Assembly (NCBI RefSeq): GCF_024666525.1 | Contig: NZ_CP088294.1 | Location: forward strand, 372,001 to 436,000 | Source: Pseudomonas sp. J452 | GTDB taxonomy: Bacteria; Pseudomonadota; Gammaproteobacteria; Pseudomonadales; Pseudomonadaceae | Direction of reading: 5' to 3' | DNA length: 64,000 bases | Shown here: in pieces, positions 48,043 to 60,873 of the stretch | How positions within the stretch are numbered: the stretch's first letter is position 1 | Layout: each line of letters starts with the position of its first letter | The notes under the pieces: model-generated | What the model saw: only the letters and a program-made list of their open reading frames with translations | What the model was told of the DNA's origin: nothing | The model's database searches: none | Program-made: the position numbers and the translations under genes

Positions 48043-48930
48043 TTAACGACAATCCACTGTCAGGTAACTGGTGGGGCTGGACGACCAGGTGGCCGTGCCC
48101 TCGATGCGGTAACCGGCGACGCTTGGCGCTGCCATCTGGCCGCGCCCGAGGGCGACCAAATTGAGGCGTTGCAAGTCCGGTCGGGCGAGGTCCTGCAGGT
48201 CGCGGCTGCGCAGGCTCTCGGCGATCAGGTAGAGCTGCGCCACCTCGTCGCGGCTGGCCGGCAGGCTGGCTTCGCCATTCAGCACGCGCTTGAGGTAGAT
48301 CAGGATGTCCGCCGCCGAATAGGCCTGCAGACTCTGCTCACGCAGCGCAACGGTGCTGCGTTCGAGCTGTTGCAGGGTGGCGACCGGCTCCGGCTGCGCA
48401 GCCTCGGCCTGCAGCTGCCACTCGCTGAGGCTGAGGCCCTGCAAGGCGCCGCTGGCGTCTGCCTGCACCCGGCACTGGCCGCCGAAGTCGGTCGCCAGCT
48501 GGCGGGCATAACGGCGCAGCAGCTCGGCCTGCTCGGCCTCACTGTAGGGGTGCGCCAGGCGCAGCCAGAAGTGCGTCGCGTCATGCGTCGCCGTGACCAG
48601 GCGCGGGCCGAGCAGCGGATGCTGCTCGACCAGCCCGGCCAGGGTCTGCAGGCCCGCAGGCGTCAGCTCGCGAGTCTCGATCAGCCGGCGAAAGCGCACA
48701 TCGTCGCCCTGCACGGCAATCGCATTAGTACTGGCCAGGCTGTCCAGGGCGCGAATCGGCGTGCGCCCCGCACCATCCTGCAGCGTCCACAGGTTCTGCG
48801 TGGCTCCCACCAGTTGCTGCAGGTGGGCGGCCTGGTACAGGTCGCCCCCCGGATACAGGGTCAGCGCCAGCCAATCCTGCGCGCCAGCCGGCAGGGCCAG
48901 GCACAGCAGCCAGAGCAGGTGCTTACGCAT
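48043..48930 (-). CDS. exported protein of unknown function in the RND operon
   Basis: A 295-residue protein with a clear signal peptide (MRKHLLWLLCLALPAGA-QD). I do not recognise a family. Visible blocks are RALDSLASTNAIAVQGDDVRFR, LTPAGLQTLAGLVEQHPLL, ATHFWLRLAHPYSEAEQAELLRRYARQL and a C-terminal PTSYLTVDCR with one Cys. The middle part reads like the periplasmic loops of MMPL-type transporters, so it may be an accessory periplasmic subunit. It overlaps the transporter gene by eight bases. Confidence 0.75.
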   Translation of the reverse strand: MRKHLLWLLCLALPAGAQDWLALTLYPGGDLYQAAHLQQLVGATQNLWTLQDGAGRTPIRALDSLASTNAIAVQGDDVRFRRLIETRELTPAGLQTLAGLVEQHPLLGPRLVTATHDATHFWLRLAHPYSEAEQAELLRRYARQLATDFGGQCRVQADASGALQGLSLSEWQLQAEAAQPEPVATLQQLERSTVALREQSLQAYSAADILIYLKRVLNGEASLPASRDEVAQLYLIAESLRSRDLQDLARPDLQRLNLVALGRGQMAAPSVAGYRIEGTATWSSSPTSYLTVDCR

Positions 48931-51454: not shown

Positions 51455-52671
51455 GCCGCCGCTCCTTCGCCGGTGTAGGCGTCCAGGCGCAGGTCGTCCT
51501 TGGCCTTGCTACGGTTCTGCGCATCCGCCACCAGGTTGGCCCAGATCACCGTCTTGTGAATTTCGCTGGTGCCGCCGGCGAAGAACAGGCCGATGGAGTC
51601 GCGCAGCAGGCGCTCGTAGTGGTGGTCGCGGCGGTAGCCGTAGTTGCCGTGGATGCGCATGGCATTCAGGCAGGCCTCATGCATCGACTCGCTGGCCAGC
51701 ACCTTGATGATCGAAGCGAGGGTCGAGCAGTCGCGGCCCTGTTCCAGTTCGGTCAGGCCGCGGCCGACCACGCTGCGCAGCAGCTCCAGTTGGGTGTAGG
51801 CCTGGACGATGTGGCCCTGCACGTACTGGTTGTCGCTGATCGGCCGGCCAAAGGCCTCACGCTTGAGGCTGTATTGCAGGCACTCGTCGATCACCGGCTG
51901 CATGCAGCCAACGATGGACACGCCAGTGAAGATGCGCTCGACCAGGAAGCCGAAGTACAGCACGCGCAGGCCCTGGCCCTCGATGCCGACCAGGCTGGCG
52001 GCATCCAGCGCCACGTCGTCGAAACTCAGGCTGCCGATCGGCGTGCCGCGGTTGCCCATCAGCTCGAACGGCGTGGATTGGGTAAGGCCCGGCTTGGCGG
52101 TCTCGGTGATGAAGCAGGAGATGGCGTTGGCACCGCCCTCTTCGAGGCGGGCGAAGGTCATGCAGATATCCGCCACCGGGGCGTTGGTGATGTTCCACTT
52201 CATGCCGTTGAGGCGGTAACCGCTGCCATCGCGGCGCGCCGCCAGCTTCAGCGAACGCACGTCGGAGCCGCAGCCCTGTTCGGTGATGGCGAAGCAGCCA
52301 ATTTTCTCGCCACTGATCAGCGGCGGCAGCCAGCGCTGCAGTTGCTCCTCCGTGCCGTAGCTGATCAGCGCCGCCTGCACCAGAGCCACCTGGGCGACGA
52401 AAGAGACCAGCACGCCCATGTCCTGGCAGCCCTCGGAGAAGCCTTCCAGCGCAGCGGAAAATTCCCAGATGCCTAGGCCCTGGCCACCGTACTGCTTGGG
52501 CATGTGTACGCCGAACAGGCCGCTGCTACCCAGGGCCAGCCACAGTTCGCGGTCGAAGCCCAGTTCGCGATCGCGCTGGGACGAGGTGGGGCGCACCAGC
52601 TCGCGGCCGACGGTCAGGTAGTGGGCGCGGATGTCTTGCTGTTGTTCGTTCCAGATACCGTTCATGTTCAT
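51451..52671 (-). CDS. acyl-CoA dehydrogenase-family flavoprotein
   Basis: A 406-residue acyl-CoA dehydrogenase fold: MPKQYGGQGLG, CFAITEQGCGSDVRSLKLAA (FAD/substrate contact), KWNITNAPVADICMTFA, REAFGRPISDNQYVQ, MRIHGNYGYRRDHHYERLLRD and FAGGTSEIHK. The usual catalytic Glu directly before GTS is Gly; E245 in LVERIFTG lies where the long-chain and isovaleryl enzymes place theirs, so activity is likely retained. It may desaturate an acyl chain bound to CoA or a carrier protein. Overlaps both neighbours by ATGA. Confidence 0.9.
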   Translation of the reverse strand: MNMNGIWNEQQQDIRAHYLTVGRELVRPTSSQRDRELGFDRELWLALGSSGLFGVHMPKQYGGQGLGIWEFSAALEGFSEGCQDMGVLVSFVAQVALVQAALISYGTEEQLQRWLPPLISGEKIGCFAITEQGCGSDVRSLKLAARRDGSGYRLNGMKWNITNAPVADICMTFARLEEGGANAISCFITETAKPGLTQSTPFELMGNRGTPIGSLSFDDVALDAASLVGIEGQGLRVLYFGFLVERIFTGVSIVGCMQPVIDECLQYSLKREAFGRPISDNQYVQGHIVQAYTQLELLRSVVGRGLTELEQGRDCSTLASIIKVLASESMHEACLNAMRIHGNYGYRRDHHYERLLRDSIGLFFAGGTSEIHKTVIWANLVADAQNRSKAKDDLRLDAYTGEGAAA

Positions 52672-54416
52672 GCTCCTGTGTGCAGAGGGGTCTGCTGCTT
52701 GGCGGCGCGCAGCTGGGAAAGGAATTCGTCGCCTTCGAGTTCGATCAGCGCCTCGATCTGTGCCACCCGCTCGTGGTCGATGGCGTCCAGACGCAGCCAG
52801 AAGGGGTGCACCTCGCGGCCCTGATAGCGGTTGGCGTAGAGATGCTCGGCCGGGATGCTGGCGTCGCGTGCCGGCATCACCTGCGGGCGGAAGCCGAAGA
52901 AACCGAGGTTGCGCAGGGTGACCTGGCGCTCACCGTCACCAACCATCGCGACCACGCCGCTGTCGGCCTTGCACAGCAGGCGGCCGTAGGCGCTTAGCAG
53001 CAGCATGCCGGCCTTGGCCTCCAGCAGCGGATCGCCGATCTGCGCCTTGGTCACCCGACCGATCTCGCGCACCTGCTCCACCGGCAGCTCCTGCAGCTCG
53101 GTGATCTGTGCATAGAGGTCACGACCGAAGGCGGTCTCTACGCCAAAGGCCGGGCGCTGCGCGTCGTCGAAGCGCTTGCCGCGGGCAATCGGCGCCTTGA
53201 GCGTGGAATAGGCCAGCAACTGCTGGTCGCTCTCGCGCACCAGGACGATGTGCACGTCCTCCTGCGCCAGGTGCTCCAGCGGCTCGGCGTGCAGCTGGCG
53301 GCTGGAAGCCACCTGCGGGTTGATGAAGCCGACCTTGGCGTAGTGGACAAAGGCGAAACGCAGCAGCTGGCGGGTCAGGTTGTTATCCAGCTGGTAGTTG
53401 GGAATCGCGTAAGTGGCGATGCCGGCGCGGCGGTCGATGCAGAACTGCTGGTAGCTGCGCAGGCCGCCCAGCAGCGGCGCCTGGTAGTGCTTCACCGAAC
53501 GCTCGAGGAAGAACGCATCGGGCCGCTCCGGCGGTAGCTGGCGCCACTGTGCCAGGGCCTGACGGCCCTGCTCCAGCAGGCGCTGGTGTTCGCGCTCGGC
53601 CTGGGCATCGCGGCGCCGGGTCAGTTCCCAGACGTCGACATAGATGGCCTCACGTACCGCGCGGCCATTGAGCAGATCGATGATCAACGCGGTGGCCAGG
53701 GTGCCGAACAGGTGGGCGGCGATGCCCAGCTGCGAGGTGTAGTCCTTGCCGGCCAGATGGCGATCCAGCTCGGCGTACATATCCAGCGGCACGCACTCCA
53801 CCGGGATCAGATAGGAACAGGCCTGCATCGGATCGAGGGTGGCCACCTGCTCGGCGCTCAGCTGGTTATCCAGCACCGCCAGGTCCGGATTGCGGTAGTC
53901 GAACACCGGGATGTACTGCGCGGCGGCCATGTCGTAACCACAGACAACCGGTTTGTACTGACGCTGACAGACGCGGTGCAGCAGGTACTTCATTTCCAGG
54001 CCGGAGCGGCCGGTGACATCGATGGCGTCCACCACCACGTCGGCTTGGGCGACCATGGCTTCGACGTTGTCCGGCGTCACGCCGTGGCCGTGCAGCTCCA
54101 GCTTGATGTAGGGATTGATCTGGCGTACGCGCTCGGCAAATACCTCGACCTTGGTCCGGCCGATATCGCTGACCACCATGTTCTGCCGGTTGGCGTTGTT
54201 CAGCTCATAGCTGCCGTTGTCGGCCAGGATCAGGTGCTCGGCACCGCTACGCACCAGCAGCTCGATCACGCTGCCGCCGGTGGAGCCGCAACCGGCGATG
54301 AGGATCACCGCCTCGCGCAGGCCACACTGCTCGTCCGTGCTGATGAACCCGGCGTTACGCAGGGTAAGTTCGCGATAAAACTGATCGTGATCCAGGGGGG
54401 GGAGTGGGTGACTCAT
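52668..54416 (-). CDS. ThiF/E1-like adenylyltransferase fused to a LuxI/FeeM-like acyltransferase domain
   Basis: A 582-residue protein. Residues about 15-270 form an E1/ThiF/MoeB-type domain: AGCGSTGGS (41-49), D66 and the ELNNANRQ block (71-78), and VVVDAIDVTG (127-136). No CxxC zinc pairs and no obvious E1 catalytic Cys are seen. Residues about 330-545 look like a GNAT-fold autoinducer/N-acyl-amino-acid synthase: FAFVHYAKVGF, DVHIVLVRE, YSTLKAP, VREIGRVTKAQ (cf. the ExSR motif), AGMLLLSAYGRLL and LRNLGFFGFRP. I infer ATP-dependent activation of a carboxylate combined with acyl transfer. Start MSHPLPP has AGGA upstream; first gene of the operon. Confidence 0.75.
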   Translation of the reverse strand: MSHPLPPLDHDQFYRELTLRNAGFISTDEQCGLREAVILIAGCGSTGGSVIELLVRSGAEHLILADNGSYELNNANRQNMVVSDIGRTKVEVFAERVRQINPYIKLELHGHGVTPDNVEAMVAQADVVVDAIDVTGRSGLEMKYLLHRVCQRQYKPVVCGYDMAAAQYIPVFDYRNPDLAVLDNQLSAEQVATLDPMQACSYLIPVECVPLDMYAELDRHLAGKDYTSQLGIAAHLFGTLATALIIDLLNGRAVREAIYVDVWELTRRRDAQAEREHQRLLEQGRQALAQWRQLPPERPDAFFLERSVKHYQAPLLGGLRSYQQFCIDRRAGIATYAIPNYQLDNNLTRQLLRFAFVHYAKVGFINPQVASSRQLHAEPLEHLAQEDVHIVLVRESDQQLLAYSTLKAPIARGKRFDDAQRPAFGVETAFGRDLYAQITELQELPVEQVREIGRVTKAQIGDPLLEAKAGMLLLSAYGRLLCKADSGVVAMVGDGERQVTLRNLGFFGFRPQVMPARDASIPAEHLYANRYQGREVHPFWLRLDAIDHERVAQIEALIELEGDEFLSQLRAAKQQTPLHTGA

Positions 54417-54509
54417 CGTGGCGTCCTGCGGAGTAAGGGAGGCGGGCATCCTATGCAGCGCTTTAATGGCACAACAAGGAGCAAAAAGCCTCCGCTGCCA
54501 TTAACGACA

Positions 54510-55534: not shown

Positions 55535-55800
55535 TCCCTACCTCCCCGTTGAAATCGATACCGACGGCCGCGAGTATACTCAGCGGCAGTCCATGAAAAA
55601 GTCTGCTATTTCCGATAATTGCTGAACAGCACGGCATATCGACGTCACACTAACTTGCTTGAATGGCCTGCAGGCGACAGCACTGGGCCGTAGCGTCAAC
55701 CCTTGCCAAAGCGCGGTTGCCGCGCGCACATTCACCAGTAGCCCGCCGCTGGCGGCTGGATTTTCTGCAGGGCCGGGGCCCTGCCACGAGGGGGAATTGC

Positions 55801-56400
55801 ATGTCACATGCCGATGTCGAGGTGCTCCAGCGCGAGACCTGCTTCAAGGGCTTCTATCGCCTGGACCGCCTGCATCTGCGCCACCGCCAGTTCGCCGGCG
55901 GCATGGGCCCGCAGCTCAGCCGCGAGCTGTTCGTGCGCCACGACGCCGTCTGCGTGCTGCCCTACGACCCGCAGCGCGACAGCGTGGTGCTGATCGAGCA
56001 GTTCCGCGTCGGCGCCATGGACAAGAGCGCCAACCCCTGGCTGCTGGAGCTGGTGGCCGGGCTGATCGACAAGGACGAGGAGCCGGAAGAGGTGGCCCGC
56101 CGCGAAGCCATCGAGGAAGCTGACCTGACCCTCGGCGCGCTGTGGCCGATCACCACCTACTACCCTTCCCCCGGCGGCTCCGACGAGCGCGTCTACCTGT
56201 ATGTCGGCCGCTGCGACAGCCAGGGCGCCGGCGGCGTGCATGGCCTGGCCGAGGAAGGCGAAGACATCCGCGTGCATGTCTGGCCGCTGGAAGATGCCCT
56301 GCAGGCGGTCAAGGACGGGCGCATCAACAACGCCGCCAGCATCATCGCCCTGCAATGGCTGGCGCTGAACCGCGCGGAAGTGCGGGGGCTGTGGTCATGA
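55801..56400 (+). CDS. nudF: ADP-ribose pyrophosphatase (NudF/AspP)
   Basis: A 199-residue Nudix hydrolase with the box running G87 to about residue 109 (GLIDKDEEPEEVARREAIEE, AD). The N-terminal VEVLQRETCFKGFYRLDRLHLRHRQF and YYPSPGGSDERVYLYVG match the ADP-ribose pyrophosphatase subgroup. It cleaves ADP-ribose to AMP and ribose-5-phosphate. The ATG at 55801 has GAGGGGGA upstream. First gene of nudF-DUF1249; stop overlaps the next start. Confidence 0.94.
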   Translation: MSHADVEVLQRETCFKGFYRLDRLHLRHRQFAGGMGPQLSRELFVRHDAVCVLPYDPQRDSVVLIEQFRVGAMDKSANPWLLELVAGLIDKDEEPEEVARREAIEEADLTLGALWPITTYYPSPGGSDERVYLYVGRCDSQGAGGVHGLAEEGEDIRVHVWPLEDALQAVKDGRINNAASIIALQWLALNRAEVRGLWS

Positions 56401-56843
56401 ACCTGCTGCGTGAGCGTTACCGGGTCGACCTGGTCGAACTGCAAGCCGCTTGCGAAGCCAACTATGCGCGCCTGCTGCGCCTGCTGCCGGACATGCGTGC
56501 GGCGCAGGGCGAGCGCCGCGTGGCCCTGAGCCAGGGCGACCAGTTGCTCGGCGTGCTGGTGCTGCAGGTGCTGGAAGCCTGCCCCTACACCACCACCCTG
56601 CAGGTGCGCCAGGAACACAGCCTGCCGTGGCTGCCGGTGCCCAAGCTGGAAGTACGGGTCTACCACGACGCGCGCATGGCCGAGGTGGTCAGCGCGGAAA
56701 ACGCCCGGCGCTTTCGCAGCATCTACAGCTACCCGAATGCCGCCATGCACCAGCCGGACGAGAAGACCCAGCTCAACCTGTTCCTCGGCGAATGGCTCAG
56801 CCACTGCATGGCCTGTGGCCATGAACTGGCCAGCGTGCGCTGA
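56397..56843 (+). CDS. DUF1249 family protein (YqiB-like)
   Basis: A 148-residue protein with RYRVDLVELQAACEANYARLLRLLP, LEACPYTTTLQVRQ, LEVRVYHDARMAEVV and PDEKTQLNLFLGEWLSHCMACGH. It always accompanies nudF and cpdA in gammaproteobacteria, but its function is unknown. The start at 56397 overlaps the nudF stop (ATGA). Confidence 0.92.
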   Translation: MNLLRERYRVDLVELQAACEANYARLLRLLPDMRAAQGERRVALSQGDQLLGVLVLQVLEACPYTTTLQVRQEHSLPWLPVPKLEVRVYHDARMAEVVSAENARRFRSIYSYPNAAMHQPDEKTQLNLFLGEWLSHCMACGHELASVR

Positions 56844-56945
56844 GAGCCGACCTACGATCGCCTGGCCGTCGGCCAACGCACCGCCGCACACCGATCAATT
56901 TCTAGCCAGACACCCCCGAACACCCCGGCTTTCGCCGCAGAAACG

Positions 56946-56987
56946 CCCGGCAAACGTGGCAAATGTGACCCGTTCACGTTTGCCGGG
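56946..56987. promoter_or_regulatory. 13-base inverted repeat with Vfr/CRP-like half-sites before cpdA
   Basis: CCCGGCAAACGTG and CACGTTTGCCGGG are perfect inverted arms around a 16-base loop. The loop and right arm contain TGTGA-N5-TCACG, close to but one base shorter than the Vfr/CRP pattern TGTGA-N6-TCACA. It could be a terminator for DUF1249, a cAMP-receptor site for cpdA, or both. Confidence 0.5.
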
Positions 56988-57044
56988 TTTACCGAATCGC
57001 ATTTCAGCCACCATAATCCTGAGAACCTGTTCAGGAGTCGCACC

Positions 57045-57860
57045 TTGTCGCGCCCCGCTACCCTTGCCCATGACCCCTCGGTGCTGATCGTTCAGCTCTC
57101 CGACAGTCATCTGTTTGCCGAAGAAGACGGCAAGCTGCTTGGCATGAACACCTGCGACAGCCTGCAGCGGGTGATCGAGCGCGCACGCGAAGAACAGCCG
57201 CACATCGACCTGATGCTGGCCTCCGGCGATCTGTCGCAGGATGGTTCGCTGGCGTCCTACCAGCGCTTTCGCGAGCTGACCGATCCGGTTGCGGCAAAGG
57301 CCCGCTGGTTCGCCGGCAACCACGATGAGCTGCCGAGCATGCGCGCCGCCTGCAAAGACAGCGATCGACTGGAGCCGATCCTCGACCTCGGCAACTGGCG
57401 CATCACCCTGCTCGACTCCTCGATTCCCGGTGCCGTGCCCGGCTTCCTCGGCGACGACCAGCTCGAACTGCTGGAGCAATCGCTCAACGCCGCGCCCGAA
57501 CGCCACCACCTGGTGTGCTTCCACCATCACCCGGTTTCCATCGGCTGCAACTGGATGGAGCCGATCGGCTTGCGCAACCCGGATGCCCTGTTTGCCGTGC
57601 TGGCCAAGGCGCCGCAGGTCAAGGCCATCCTCTGGGGGCATATCCACCAGGAATTCGACCAGCAGCGTGACGGCGTGCGCCTGCTCGCCTCACCGTCCAC
57701 CTGCGTGCAGTTCGCCCCCGGCAGCGAGGAATTCCAGGTCGACACCACGGCACCCGGTTACCGCTGGCTGCGCCTGCATGCCGACGGCCGGCTGGAGACC
57801 GGCGTGTCGCGGGTCACCGGCATCCAGTTCGTCGTCGACTACAGCGTCAAGGGCTATTGA
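57045..57860 (+). CDS. cpdA: 3',5'-cyclic-AMP phosphodiesterase (CpdA)
   Basis: A 271-residue class III phosphodiesterase with the metallophosphatase motifs in order: DSH, GDLSQDG, GNHDE, FHHHP and GHIHQE. It hydrolyses cAMP and so limits Vfr-dependent gene expression in Pseudomonas. The TTG start at 57045 is chosen because CAGGAG lies eight bases upstream and MSRPATLAHDPSVLIVQLSD is the family N-terminus. Confidence 0.95.
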   Translation: MSRPATLAHDPSVLIVQLSDSHLFAEEDGKLLGMNTCDSLQRVIERAREEQPHIDLMLASGDLSQDGSLASYQRFRELTDPVAAKARWFAGNHDELPSMRAACKDSDRLEPILDLGNWRITLLDSSIPGAVPGFLGDDQLELLEQSLNAAPERHHLVCFHHHPVSIGCNWMEPIGLRNPDALFAVLAKAPQVKAILWGHIHQEFDQQRDGVRLLASPSTCVQFAPGSEEFQVDTTAPGYRWLRLHADGRLETGVSRVTGIQFVVDYSVKGY

Positions 57861-57863
57861 GCC

Positions 57864-57953
57864 TGTAGGAGCCAGCTTGCTGGCGATCAACGAGCTATCC
57901 GTTGCATCTATGTGGCAGGTTAACCAGGAGGCCGCCAGCAAGCTTGCTCCTAC
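57864..57953. repeat. REP-type inverted pair, GTAGGAGCCAGCTTGCTGG family
   Basis: TGTAGGAGCCAGCTTGCTGGC and GCCAGCAAGCTTGCTCCTACG separated by about 48 unrelated bases, just past the cpdA stop. Confidence 0.8.
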
Positions 57954-58042
57954 GAAGAGCACCTGATCAGGCCGCTCCCTCGTCCAAACCATGTCTGTCA
58001 ACGGTTGCAGCCTGCCGCCCCCGCTTGTAGCCTCCCCTCCCC

Positions 58043-58648
58043 ATGACCAGCATCCTTTATATCCACGGCCTCAACAGCTCACCGGCCTCGACCAAGGCCA
58101 GCCAGCTGCTGCGGGTTGCCGAACACGGCGGGATCGCCCAGCACCTGCGCGTACCGGCCCTGCACCACCACCCGCGCCAGGCCATGGCCCAGCTGCAGGC
58201 GGCCATCGCCGAACTGGGCCGGCCGCTGCTGGTGGGCAGTTCGCTGGGCGGCTACTACGCCACCTACCTGGCTCAGCAGCATGACCTGAGCGCCCTGCTG
58301 ATCAACCCGGCGGTACGCCCGCACCGGCTGTTCGGTGGCAAAGAAGTCGAGCAGACCAATCATTACAGCGGCGAAACCTGGCTGTTGACCCACGACCATG
58401 TGCAAGCCCTGGCCGAGCTGGAAGTGCCGCCCCCGCAGGACGCCCAACGCTATCGCGTGTGGCTGCAGACCGCCGACGAGACCCTCGACTACCGCCAGGC
58501 CGAGGATTACTACCAGGGCTGCAGCCTGGATATCCAGGAAGGCGGCGACCACAGCTACCAGGGTTTTGCCGGCCGCCTGCCGGAAATCCTCGAACTGGCT
58601 GGCTTCGACCGCTCAATCTGGCAAGATTTCGACTTTTCCACCCTTTGA
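58043..58648 (+). CDS. yqiA: YqiA-family esterase
   Basis: A 201-residue alpha/beta hydrolase with LYIHGLNSSPASTKA, nucleophile elbow VGSSLGGYYAT, INPAVRPHRL and a late acid/His pair (QTADETLDY, GGDHSYQGF). YqiA proteins hydrolyse short acyl esters. It sits between cpdA and parE, the usual order. Confidence 0.93.
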   Translation: MTSILYIHGLNSSPASTKASQLLRVAEHGGIAQHLRVPALHHHPRQAMAQLQAAIAELGRPLLVGSSLGGYYATYLAQQHDLSALLINPAVRPHRLFGGKEVEQTNHYSGETWLLTHDHVQALAELEVPPPQDAQRYRVWLQTADETLDYRQAEDYYQGCSLDIQEGGDHSYQGFAGRLPEILELAGFDRSIWQDFDFSTL

Positions 58649-58711
58649 GCCCGCCGGGCTGCCAACGCGCAGCCCGTCTAGCGCCCAGATCAACTGACGA
58701 CAAGAGACCCC

Positions 58712-58981
58712 ATGGCCCAGCAGACAGCTTGCACTCATACCCTTTTCTCCCTCGCGACGGAGGCCATTTCGCTACGGAGCAAGGAAGGAGGAGTGAGGTT
58801 TGGTGCGCCAAATGAACGACGACTGACACTGCGCCGTAGCGAAATGGCACCGTCCCTTCGGGTTGCGCCAGAAATTTCGCCATGCGGCGTTGCGGGACTT
58901 GCCAAGGGGATGCCATTGCCAGCGTCCCGCGCCTTGCCTGGCGAAATTTCTGACTGCAACGCGGGGGAGAAAAGGGTATGA
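58712..58981 (+). pseudogene. former parE start codon now leading an 89-codon frame through the inserted element
   Basis: The ATG at 58712 (MAQQTA) sits where parE would be expected to begin, but the inserted element throws it out of the parE frame. Its frame runs through the whole element and stops at TGA 58979-58981, overlapping the new parE ATG (58978) as ATGA. The peptide has no family resemblance. It may act only as a coupled leader. Confidence 0.55.
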
Positions 58982-58990
58982 GTGCAAGCT
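58726..58990. mobile_element. MITE-like element at the parE start
   Basis: Perfect 26-base terminal inverted repeats (58726-58751 and 58965-58990; outermost bases AGCTTGCACTCATACCC) enclose two hairpins. Hairpin 1 pairs GCCATTTCGCTACGG (58763-58777) with 58834-58848; hairpin 2 pairs AGAAATTTCGCCA (58870-58882) with 58939-58951 and continues with GCGGGAC/GTCCCGC (58892, 58924). No transposase is encoded. Target duplication is unclear because the ends are AGCT on both sides. Each end carries an outward-facing GGGAG...ATG. Confidence 0.75.
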
Positions 58991-60873
58991 CTTACAACGC
59001 CGATGCCATCGAAGTCCTCTCCGGCCTCGACCCGGTGCGCAAGCGCCCGGGCATGTACACCGACACCTCGCGGCCCAACCACCTGGCCCAGGAAGTCATC
59101 GACAACAGCGTCGACGAGGCCCTCGCCGGCCACGCCAAATCGATCCAGGTGATCCTCCACGAGGACAACTCCCTGGAAGTGCTCGACGACGGCCGCGGCA
59201 TGCCGGTGGACATCCACCCGGAAGAAGGCGTGCCCGGCGTCGAACTGATCCTCACCAAGCTGCACGCCGGCGGCAAGTTCTCCAACAAGAACTACCAGTT
59301 CTCCGGCGGCCTGCACGGCGTCGGCATCTCGGTGGTCAACGCGCTGTCGACCCAGGTGATCGTCACCGTCAAGCGCGACGGCAACGAGTACCAGATGAGC
59401 TTCGCCGACGGCTTCAAGGCCAGCGACCTGGCCGTGGTCGGCACGGTGGGCAAGCGCAACACCGGCACCAGCGTGCACTTCTGGCCAGACGCCAAGTACT
59501 TCGACTCGCACAAGTTCTCGGTCAGCCGCCTCAAGCACGTACTGAAAGCCAAGGCCGTGCTCTGCCCCGGCCTGGCCGTCAGTTTCGAGGACAAGGCCAG
59601 CGGCGAAAAAGTCGAATGGCTGTATGAAGACGGCCTGCGTTCCTACCTGGTGGATGCCGTCAGTGAATTCCAGCGCCTGCCCGAGGAGCCCTTCGTCGGC
59701 AGCCTGGCAGGCAATAAAGAGGCGGTGGACTGGGCCCTGCTGTGGCTGCCGGAAGGCGGCGACGCGGTGCAGGAAAGCTACGTCAACCTGATCCCCACCG
59801 CCCAGGGCGGCACCCACGTCAACGGCCTGCGCCAGGGCCTGCTGGATGCCATGCGCGAGTTCTGCGAGTTCCGCAACCTGCTGCCACGCGGGGTCAAGCT
59901 GGCCCCGGAAGATATCTGGGAGCGCATCGCCTTCGTCCTCTCGATGAAGATGCAGGATGCACAGTTTTCCGGGCAGACCAAGGAACGCCTGTCCTCGCGC
60001 GAAGCCTCAGCCTTCGTCTCCGGCGTGGTCAAGGATGCCTTCAGCCTGTGGCTCAACGGCCACCCCGAGCTCGGCCAGCAGCTCGCCGAGCTGGCCATCA
60101 GCAACGCCAACCGCCGCCTCAAGGCCGGCAAGAAGGTCGAGCGCAAGAAGATCACCCAGGGCCCGGCACTGCCCGGCAAGCTGGCCGACTGTGCAGGGCA
60201 GGACCCGATGCGCTCCGAGCTGTTCCTGGTCGAAGGGGATTCCGCCGGCGGCTCGGCCAAGCAGGCGCGCGACAAGGAGTTCCAGGCGATCCTGCCGCTG
60301 CGCGGCAAGATCCTCAACACCTGGGAAGTCGACGGCGGCGAAGTGCTGGCCAGTCAGGAAGTGCACAACATCGCCGTGGCCATCGGCGTCGACCCGGGTT
60401 CGGCCGATCTTGGCGAACTGCGCTACGGCAAGGTGTGCATCCTCGCCGACGCCGACTCCGACGGCCTGCACATCGCCACCCTGATCTGCGCGCTGTTCGT
60501 CCGCCACTTCCGCCCGCTGGTGGATGCCGGCCACGTCTACGTCGCCATGCCGCCGCTGTACCGCATCGACCTGGGCAAGGAGATCTTCTACGCCCTGGAT
60601 GACGCCGAGCGCGACGGCATCCTCGATCGCCTGGTCGCCGAGAAACGCCGCGGCAAGCCGCAGGTCACCCGCTTCAAGGGTCTCGGCGAGATGAACCCGC
60701 CGCAGCTGCGCGAAACCACCATGGACCCCAACACCCGCCGCCTGGTGCAGCTGACCCTGGAAGACTTCGAGGGCACGATCGAGATCATGGACATGCTGCT
60801 GGCGAAGAAACGCGCCGGCGATCGCAAGAGCTGGCTGGAGTCGAAAGGCAACCTGGCCGAGGTTCTGGCGTGA
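58978..60873 (+). CDS. parE: DNA topoisomerase IV subunit B (ParE)
   Basis: A 631-residue GHKL ATPase/TOPRIM protein: YNADAIEVLSGLDPVRKRPGMY, EVIDNSVDEALAG, DDGRGMPVD, GGLHGVGISVVNAL, then the TOPRIM acidic motifs LVEGDSAGGSAKQARD and ADADSDGLHI. With ParC it decatenates chromosomes. The ATG at 58978 is preceded by GGGGGAGA seven bases upstream; both the ribosome-binding site and the first four codons belong to the right end of the inserted element. The native sequence resumes at about TCTTACAAC. The stop overlaps the next start as GTGA. Confidence 0.95.
   Translation: MSASSYNADAIEVLSGLDPVRKRPGMYTDTSRPNHLAQEVIDNSVDEALAGHAKSIQVILHEDNSLEVLDDGRGMPVDIHPEEGVPGVELILTKLHAGGKFSNKNYQFSGGLHGVGISVVNALSTQVIVTVKRDGNEYQMSFADGFKASDLAVVGTVGKRNTGTSVHFWPDAKYFDSHKFSVSRLKHVLKAKAVLCPGLAVSFEDKASGEKVEWLYEDGLRSYLVDAVSEFQRLPEEPFVGSLAGNKEAVDWALLWLPEGGDAVQESYVNLIPTAQGGTHVNGLRQGLLDAMREFCEFRNLLPRGVKLAPEDIWERIAFVLSMKMQDAQFSGQTKERLSSREASAFVSGVVKDAFSLWLNGHPELGQQLAELAISNANRRLKAGKKVERKKITQGPALPGKLADCAGQDPMRSELFLVEGDSAGGSAKQARDKEFQAILPLRGKILNTWEVDGGEVLASQEVHNIAVAIGVDPGSADLGELRYGKVCILADADSDGLHIATLICALFVRHFRPLVDAGHVYVAMPPLYRIDLGKEIFYALDDAERDGILDRLVAEKRRGKPQVTRFKGLGEMNPPQLRETTMDPNTRRLVQLTLEDFEGTIEIMDMLLAKKRAGDRKSWLESKGNLAEVLA

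Follow-up and report, generated by a model that had tools for sequence, protein, structure and literature searches.

The 64,000-nucleotide stretch of the Pseudomonas sp. J452 genome analysed here (contig NZ_CP088294.1, positions 372,001 to 436,000), called the window throughout, carries a fusion gene whose product joins an N-terminal E1/ThiF-like half to a C-terminal half of the LuxI/FeeM acyltransferase type. In the reading that we favour, with a little over even confidence, the fusion has two functions, those of an N-acyl-amino-acid synthase and of an E1-type cyclase that activates carboxyl groups; its azlactone product would be oxidised by the partner acyl-CoA dehydrogenase (ACAD) and then exported. 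The best reading of the fusion itself is that a single polypeptide performs, putatively, both N-acylation and carboxyl activation. The domains and their folds, the adenylation-type residues, the gene run, the partnership with the ACAD, and the catalytic-type Glu retained in the latter were observed directly.

The fusion protein and its relatives

The two-part frame of 582 residues had been noticed in a first-pass annotation made from this DNA, and it is confirmed here; another in-frame ATG, at 54449, could also serve as its start. Among the matches listed for the fusion (P0001) there are 55 proteins, the best 49 of which cover 94–100% of its length. The order of the two halves is reversed in the fusions P0052 and P0059, and the halves are encoded by adjoining separate genes in Nocardia (L019), Streptomyces (L021), and Kocuria (L024); judged from these sequence arrangements, the two halves belong together. 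One internal stop interrupts the fusion gene in Pseudomonas sp. MRCP1333 (L005:10001-11746), with one TAG seen in the G855 copy. No description of a fusion of acyltransferase and E1 halves was found in the literature searched, the coverage of which excluded most subscription papers.

The E1-like half

The E1-like adenylating fold that the first-pass annotation had assigned to the N-terminal half is borne out by fold comparison as well as by a match to PF00899 (2.7e-31, Pfam), and the adenylation core of the MoeB/ThiF adenylyltransferases is present. D130 and D133 are invariant in all 15 aligned rows, either of them being a candidate counterpart of the ATP-binding D217 of TrzS. The nearest solved relative is AclA. 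TcdA, ThiF, and MoeB share the fold and the adenylation-type residues with the window E1 half, but the latter, as the same annotation had stated, has no zinc Cys pairs (CxxC in 0 of 23 rows, residues 1–290), a feature which we take to characterize MoeB and ThiF, and it is found on a separate branch of the E1 tree. A canonical sulfur-carrier function of the MoeB/ThiF kind was rejected on both of these grounds. TcdA also cyclises a threonine-derived carboxylate.

A profile of the E1 half scored 229–354 bits on four standalone E1s (P0051, P0053, P0057, and P0058), 155–172 bits on P0060–P0063, and 44–84 bits on other ThiF-family proteins from the same searches. In the midpoint-rooted E1 tree, which includes the own-genome proteins L027 and L028, the window group of 22 rows (support 99/96) joins P0060–P0063 at 98/96, away from the MoeB/TcdA-type ThiF proteins. 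P0060, P0062, and P0063 are ThiF–nitroreductase fusions by Pfam, and P0061, in which Pfam finds ThiF only, is grouped with them by the tree. The actinobacterial fusions L047, L049, and L050 are longer and are likened to TrzS for their length and for weak matches to the nitroreductase profile; they join further out (93/87).

The acyltransferase half

The C-terminal half had been called LuxI/FeeM-like in the first-pass annotation, which holds for the fold, since a three-layer GNAT fold is present and the LuxI/FeeM subgroup fits it best, but not for the sequence profiles. No Pfam family of the autoinducer-synthase/FeeM type was found in 15 members at E values up to 10, and searches of Pfam, NCBIfam, and PDB sequences with this half gave no lead. 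Its identity to FeeM, BjaI, RpaI, LasI, TofI, and MesI is 8–15% over the aligned part; unlike these FeeM/LuxI-type synthases, it is fused to an E1.

The partner acyl-CoA dehydrogenase

The start of the ACAD gene overlaps the stop of the fusion gene by 4 bases. The best PDB match of the window ACAD is the prolyl-ACP (acyl carrier protein) dehydrogenase 4irn (6e-61), followed by the acyl-CoA dehydrogenase 5ol2 and isovaleryl-CoA dehydrogenase (IVD, 1ivh); going by its entry name, 4irn presumably oxidises an activated amino acid. The ACAD directly follows the fusion in all 17 gammaproteobacterial loci (L001–L017), and it is found beside or near the acyltransferase/E1 pair in 35 of 35 loci, when 18 actinobacterial ones (15 Streptomyces places together with L019, L021, and L024) are added. 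The number of ACADs genome-wide is 17 in 4.86 Mb in the genome of the window, and 63 in 8.5, 30 in 8.9, 4 in 3.0, and 7 in 4.1 Mb in four others, so that an ACAD would lie within 3 kb of a randomly chosen point with a chance of 0.021, 0.045, 0.020, 0.008, and 0.010, respectively.

Since the ACAD search profile was built from the ACADs of the window, L023, and L024, inflating the scores of these proteins and their near relatives, a tree was used instead. It comprises 21 partner ACADs, the ACAD of L023, and 30 others. The partners represent 6 of the 17 gammaproteobacterial and 15 of the 18 actinobacterial loci (L086, L090, L095, and 11 gammaproteobacterial loci being left out), and the others come from 29 of 32 places sampled out of 121 matches (hits in L098, L126, and L127 were too short), with one more taken from L085. 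The gammaproteobacterial partners form a clade of 6 and the actinobacterial ones a clade of 15, each supported at 100/100, separate from each other and standing apart from the 30 other ACADs sampled. Independent recruitment of the two clades is not claimed: the clades part in the free tree and differ in their Glu position, but a constraint uniting both was not rejected (approximately unbiased test, p 0.173).

Glu at a catalytic position is kept in all 21 partner ACADs, at one of the two known positions. All six gammaproteobacterial proteins, including that of the window, have it at the IVD position and lack the other Glu, whereas all 15 actinobacterial ones have the YEG Glu of the medium-chain type; which Glu is catalytic in which ACAD family is our assumption. 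The IVD entry 9jq4 has Ala at that Glu position.

Comparison with known acyl-oxazolone pathways

TyzA N-acylates Tyr or Phe, TyzB, a ThiF protein, cyclises the product with ATP, and TyzC, of the nitroreductase superfamily, desaturates it, yielding acyl-oxazolones (PMC10404671); OxzAB leads to the same outcome (PMC10404671, PMC12856293). TrzS is a ThiF–oxidase fusion for which cyclisation precedes desaturation (PMC12856293). Oxazolone rings are opened by acid and by methanol (PMC12856293). Producers of N-acyl dehydrotyrosine carry acyltransferase, ThiF, and nitroreductase genes, and no oxazolone was seen there (PMC12479983). OxzAB of Pseudoalteromonas rubra, as well as TyzACB and TrzAS of mycobacteria, combine an N-acyl amino acid synthase fold with a ThiF-type cyclase, both of which are found in the window. 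The first-pass annotation knew of no described enzyme with such a pairing; the idea that these activities are paired in no described system is not borne out as worded, given these systems and the litL/litM pair (by synteny; see below).

The differences concern the partner of the ThiF domain and the oxidase. The Oxz/Tyz/Trz oxidase belongs to the nitroreductase superfamily and is fused to the ThiF domain in OxzB and TrzS, whereas the ThiF domain in the window shares its chain with the acyltransferase, and the oxidoreductase encoded beside them is an ACAD. The nitroreductase PF00881 had no match in the 8 window proteins scanned, and a profile drawn from the nitroreductase portions of P0060–P0063 gave no hit at E<1 either across the whole window or in any of the 35 pair loci, matching only L092–L094 among 45 sources, although this profile is narrow and leaves room for distant oxidases elsewhere in the genome. 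As this flavin oxidase (FDO), a defining feature of the known pathways, was searched for and not found, the window system is not filed as a member of the Oxz/Tyz/Trz group. It probably works like these pathways nevertheless. The fusion and the ACAD next to it point to a new variant within a bacterial lipid family that was discovered only recently. No paper joining an ACAD to an oxazolone or azlactone was found in the literature searched, subscription papers being mostly outside its coverage.

Proposed mechanism

According to the first-pass annotation, one enzyme could both activate and N-acylate its substrate; both activities are retained in our reading, with acylation as the likely first step and activation as the second. 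With acyl-CoA or acyl-ACP as the donor, the C-terminal half would likely acylate an amino acid at its amino group, and the N-terminal half would likely adenylate the carboxylate of the resulting N-acyl amino acid. The amide oxygen may then attack the adenylate, yielding an oxazol-5(4H)-one (azlactone). The ACAD, taking the role held by the nitroreductase-type oxidase in the known acyl-oxazolone pathways, would oxidise this ring at the alpha carbon (alpha,beta-oxidation). The alpha hydrogen of an oxazolone is acidic, which suits an ACAD and would also account for the epimerisation that depends on LitM, discussed below. The product, either the ring or the opened N-acyl dehydroamino acid, may leave the cell via the RND/LolA-like/DUF1302 set. 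The substrates, the cyclisation, the desaturation, and the direction of export are what we infer from the observations listed above.

Should oxidation indeed be the task of the ACAD in the window, this class of pathways would extend beyond its known members, and genome searches based on nitroreductases would miss such loci. The fusion would in turn be a single-chain enzyme that may both make and ring-close fatty amino acids.

Relation to the lipothrenin cluster

The genes litJ, litK, litL, and litM of Streptomyces aureus (PMC10616846) include those of an ACAD, a 311-residue protein, and a 297-residue ThiF protein in the same order. The lit cluster differs from the window in that these genes are separate, that an N-oxygenase, a DUF4873 protein, and a fatty-acyl AMP ligase are present, and that its gene table contains no RND/LolA/DUF1302 set. 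In the lit-like clusters L083, L086, and L019 (Nocardia macrotermitis), recognised by gene order and lengths, the acyltransferase and E1 match the profiles of the fusion; L083 was confirmed as lit-like by Pfam: as in the lit cluster, its trio is surrounded by AurF, DUF4873, dienelactone hydrolase, ribonucleotide-reductase-like, and ACP genes. By synteny rather than by their own letters, LitL and LitM, whose accessions are WP_210637055 and WP_161108191 (PMC10616846), are putatively the same pair as the halves of the fusion.

The litL deletion abolished all lipothrenins, and after the litM deletion the L-Thr form alone remained (PMC10616846). An oxazolone may explain the LitM-dependent epimerisation, and the same chemistry would account for both the Thr epimerisation and the dehydrobutyrine of lipothrenins. 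LitL would then be an N-acyltransferase and LitM an oxazolone-forming cyclase. This reading supplies a mechanism open to testing where the authors gave only a tentative explanation of the epimerisation.

Weighing of the proposed reading and its alternatives

Several observations weigh against the reading of the fusion as a synthase and cyclase served by an ACAD. Deletion of litJ, the ACAD gene, had only minor effects in the lipothrenin study, which argues against an essential ACAD step in the lit cluster; its authors propose a dehydration route for LitM, not an oxazolone, and the string 'oxazol' is absent from the main text (PMC10616846). TyzACB does not require cyclisation and desaturation in a fixed order (PMC12856293). 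At the level of sequence, nothing links the acyltransferase half to FeeM or LuxI-type enzymes, and it is likened to the N-acyl amino acid synthases by fold rather than by the letters of OxzA or TyzA. The E1s of L047, L049, and L050 are far from that of the window, at about 60 bits compared to 138–172 for other fusions. In six loci that carry an E1 of this type (L018, L020, L022, L023, L132, and L133, the last two placed by profile score alone, at 200 and 164 bits), the profiles used found no acyltransferase; L022, L132, and L133 also lack an ACAD, whereas L023 has one 1.9 kb away. In Pokkaliibacter (L018:9938-16591), the E1, a sub-threshold GNAT match, MMPL, LolA-like, and DUF1302 genes stand in a row with no ACAD. 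An E1 from a Pyrinomonadaceae metagenome-assembled genome (L020:2402-4814) is found beside a GH3-family protein, again with no ACAD. The GH3 family makes amides with amino acids, and this protein is possibly another route to an N-acyl amino acid.

It is also conceivable, but unlikely, that epimerisation to the D form is the sole purpose for which the N-acyl amino acid is activated by the E1 half, with the ACAD acting elsewhere, such as on the acyl chain. The litM and litJ deletions described above fit such a role, and the lit-like clusters carry the same gene trio; however, the fatty chain is reported to be unchanged upon litJ deletion (PMC10616846), the window ACAD is closest to prolyl-ACP dehydrogenase and IVD-type enzymes, its retention in every one of the pair loci is more than a minor role suggests, and the scan of 8 window proteins turned up no N-oxygenase family. 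MccB and PaaA, E1-like enzymes that activate peptides, appear among the sequence and fold matches of the E1 half, and the activated N-acyl amino acid might, as with them, be transferred to another nucleophile (an amine, an alcohol, or a protein). This is improbable given the position of the E1 beside the ThiF–nitroreductase fusions and the lack of an obvious acceptor gene among the scanned neighbours.

A role of the gene run in taking up or metabolising a hydrophobic compound is very improbable. It is suggested by the AmeABCD set of Castellaniella, which includes DUF1302, LolA/DUF1329, and HAE3 pump genes and is tied to monoterpene metabolism, but AmeD, like the set as a whole, is described there as efflux (PMC6394551). 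Furthermore, the autoinducer-type acyltransferase and the E1 suggest biosynthesis, and the actinobacterial trios instead stand with genes for MMPL, MFS, amidase, or N-oxygenase proteins (no search was aimed at DUF1302 there). A paulomycin cluster with ThiF-like and ACAD genes was set aside as a parallel, since its authors liken the ThiF protein to MoeZ and propose sulfur transfer (PMC4425429).

The gene run and its neighbours

The fusion heads a tight gene run, all of it minus-strand (Table 1). Between neighbours there is either an overlap of 4 to 8 bases or a gap of 10 bases, so that the run resembles a translationally coupled operon. The first-pass annotation had reported the fusion correctly, but its partner ACAD and the export genes went unmentioned.

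Table 1. Features of the fusion locus in the window.
Feature	Position	Strand	Evidence or remarks
DUF1302 protein, about 400 aa	46048..47253	minus	PF06980 3e-12
LolA-like outer-membrane lipoprotein-sorting protein, 260 aa	47250..48032	minus	PF17131 3.6e-51; PF07044 (DUF1329) 1.4e-12
295-aa protein	48043..48930	minus	Signal-peptide-like start by eye; no family above cut-off
MMPL/RND transporter, 843 aa	48923..51454	minus	PF03176 4.9e-33
Acyl-CoA dehydrogenase, 406 aa	51451..52671	minus	PF02771, PF02770, PF00441 over cut-off
Fusion gene, 582 aa	52668..54416	minus	ATG at 54416; stop codon 52668-52670
LuxI/FeeM-type N-acyltransferase half of fusion (residues 291-582)	52671..53546	minus	
E1/ThiF-like half of fusion (residues 1-290)	53547..54416	minus	
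PAS-domain protein, 292 aa	54656..55534	minus	PF00989 7.8e-18

In L001–L017, the MMPL gene is present in 17 of 17 loci, the LolA-like and DUF1302 genes in 16 (the contig ends in L014), and the 295-residue protein, a possible periplasmic partner of the transporter, in 15. As in AmeABCD, the RND pump of the window is adjoined by LolA/DUF1329-like and DUF1302 genes; unlike that monoterpene-linked set, its match to the HAE3 model TIGR00921 (7.7e-46, 156.5 bits) is below the cut-off of 351.9. The DUF1302 protein AmeA is predicted to be in the outer membrane (PMC6394551), and by analogy the DUF1302 protein of the window is a probable outer-membrane component. An MMPL gene, mmpL9, also adjoins the tyz genes (PMC10404671), and MMPL genes are found near the trio in L021 and L079.

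The PAS gene lies 239 bases upstream of the fusion and is found in 16 of the 17 gammaproteobacterial loci, being inverted in L011, L012, and L014. Within the genus it occurs in 4 of 99 genomes, all four of them fusion carriers, so it probably serves the operon, its product being a probable sensor or regulator linked to it. Beyond it, at 55663-60873 of the window, are frames that look NUDIX-, phosphodiesterase-, and topoisomerase-like, in an order kept in the Pseudomonas loci L001–L007, L013, L016, and L017.

Distribution

E1s of this group are uncommon. Scanning genome contigs for E1 motifs alone gave 25 loci. Among Pseudomonadota, the group was found in 6 of 398 genomes at 1e-30, in three of them strongly, and the whole fusion protein in 5 of 199 genomes of the window's genus. 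In the phylum of G407 the E1 group was found in 11 of 396 genomes at 1e-25, strongly in G407 alone; in that of G403 in 1 of 247, G403 itself; and in that of G406 in 3 of 144, including G406. The distant ThiF locus L025 (66 bits) and the contexts of P0051, P0053, P0057, and P0058 are outside all counts.

A sample of 392 Streptomyces genomes (the genus of G404, which harbours L021) contained 19 places in 18 genomes at E 1e-40, of which 18 were examined, the remaining one being L021. ACAD, acyltransferase, and E1 are encoded in one region in 15 of these 18 places, tightly and in that order in 14, with the acyltransferase 6 kb away in L078. The other three (L092–L094) are E1–nitroreductase fusions with no acyltransferase match and no adjacent ACAD, L092 having a weak partial ACAD match about 7 kb off. 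In L022 (3141-4890) and L023 (9965-11713), which have no acyltransferase, the E1 gene adjoins an oppositely oriented esterase-like gene. An amidase follows the trio in L081 (6629-8050, by Pfam), and similar frames are present in L084 and L085.

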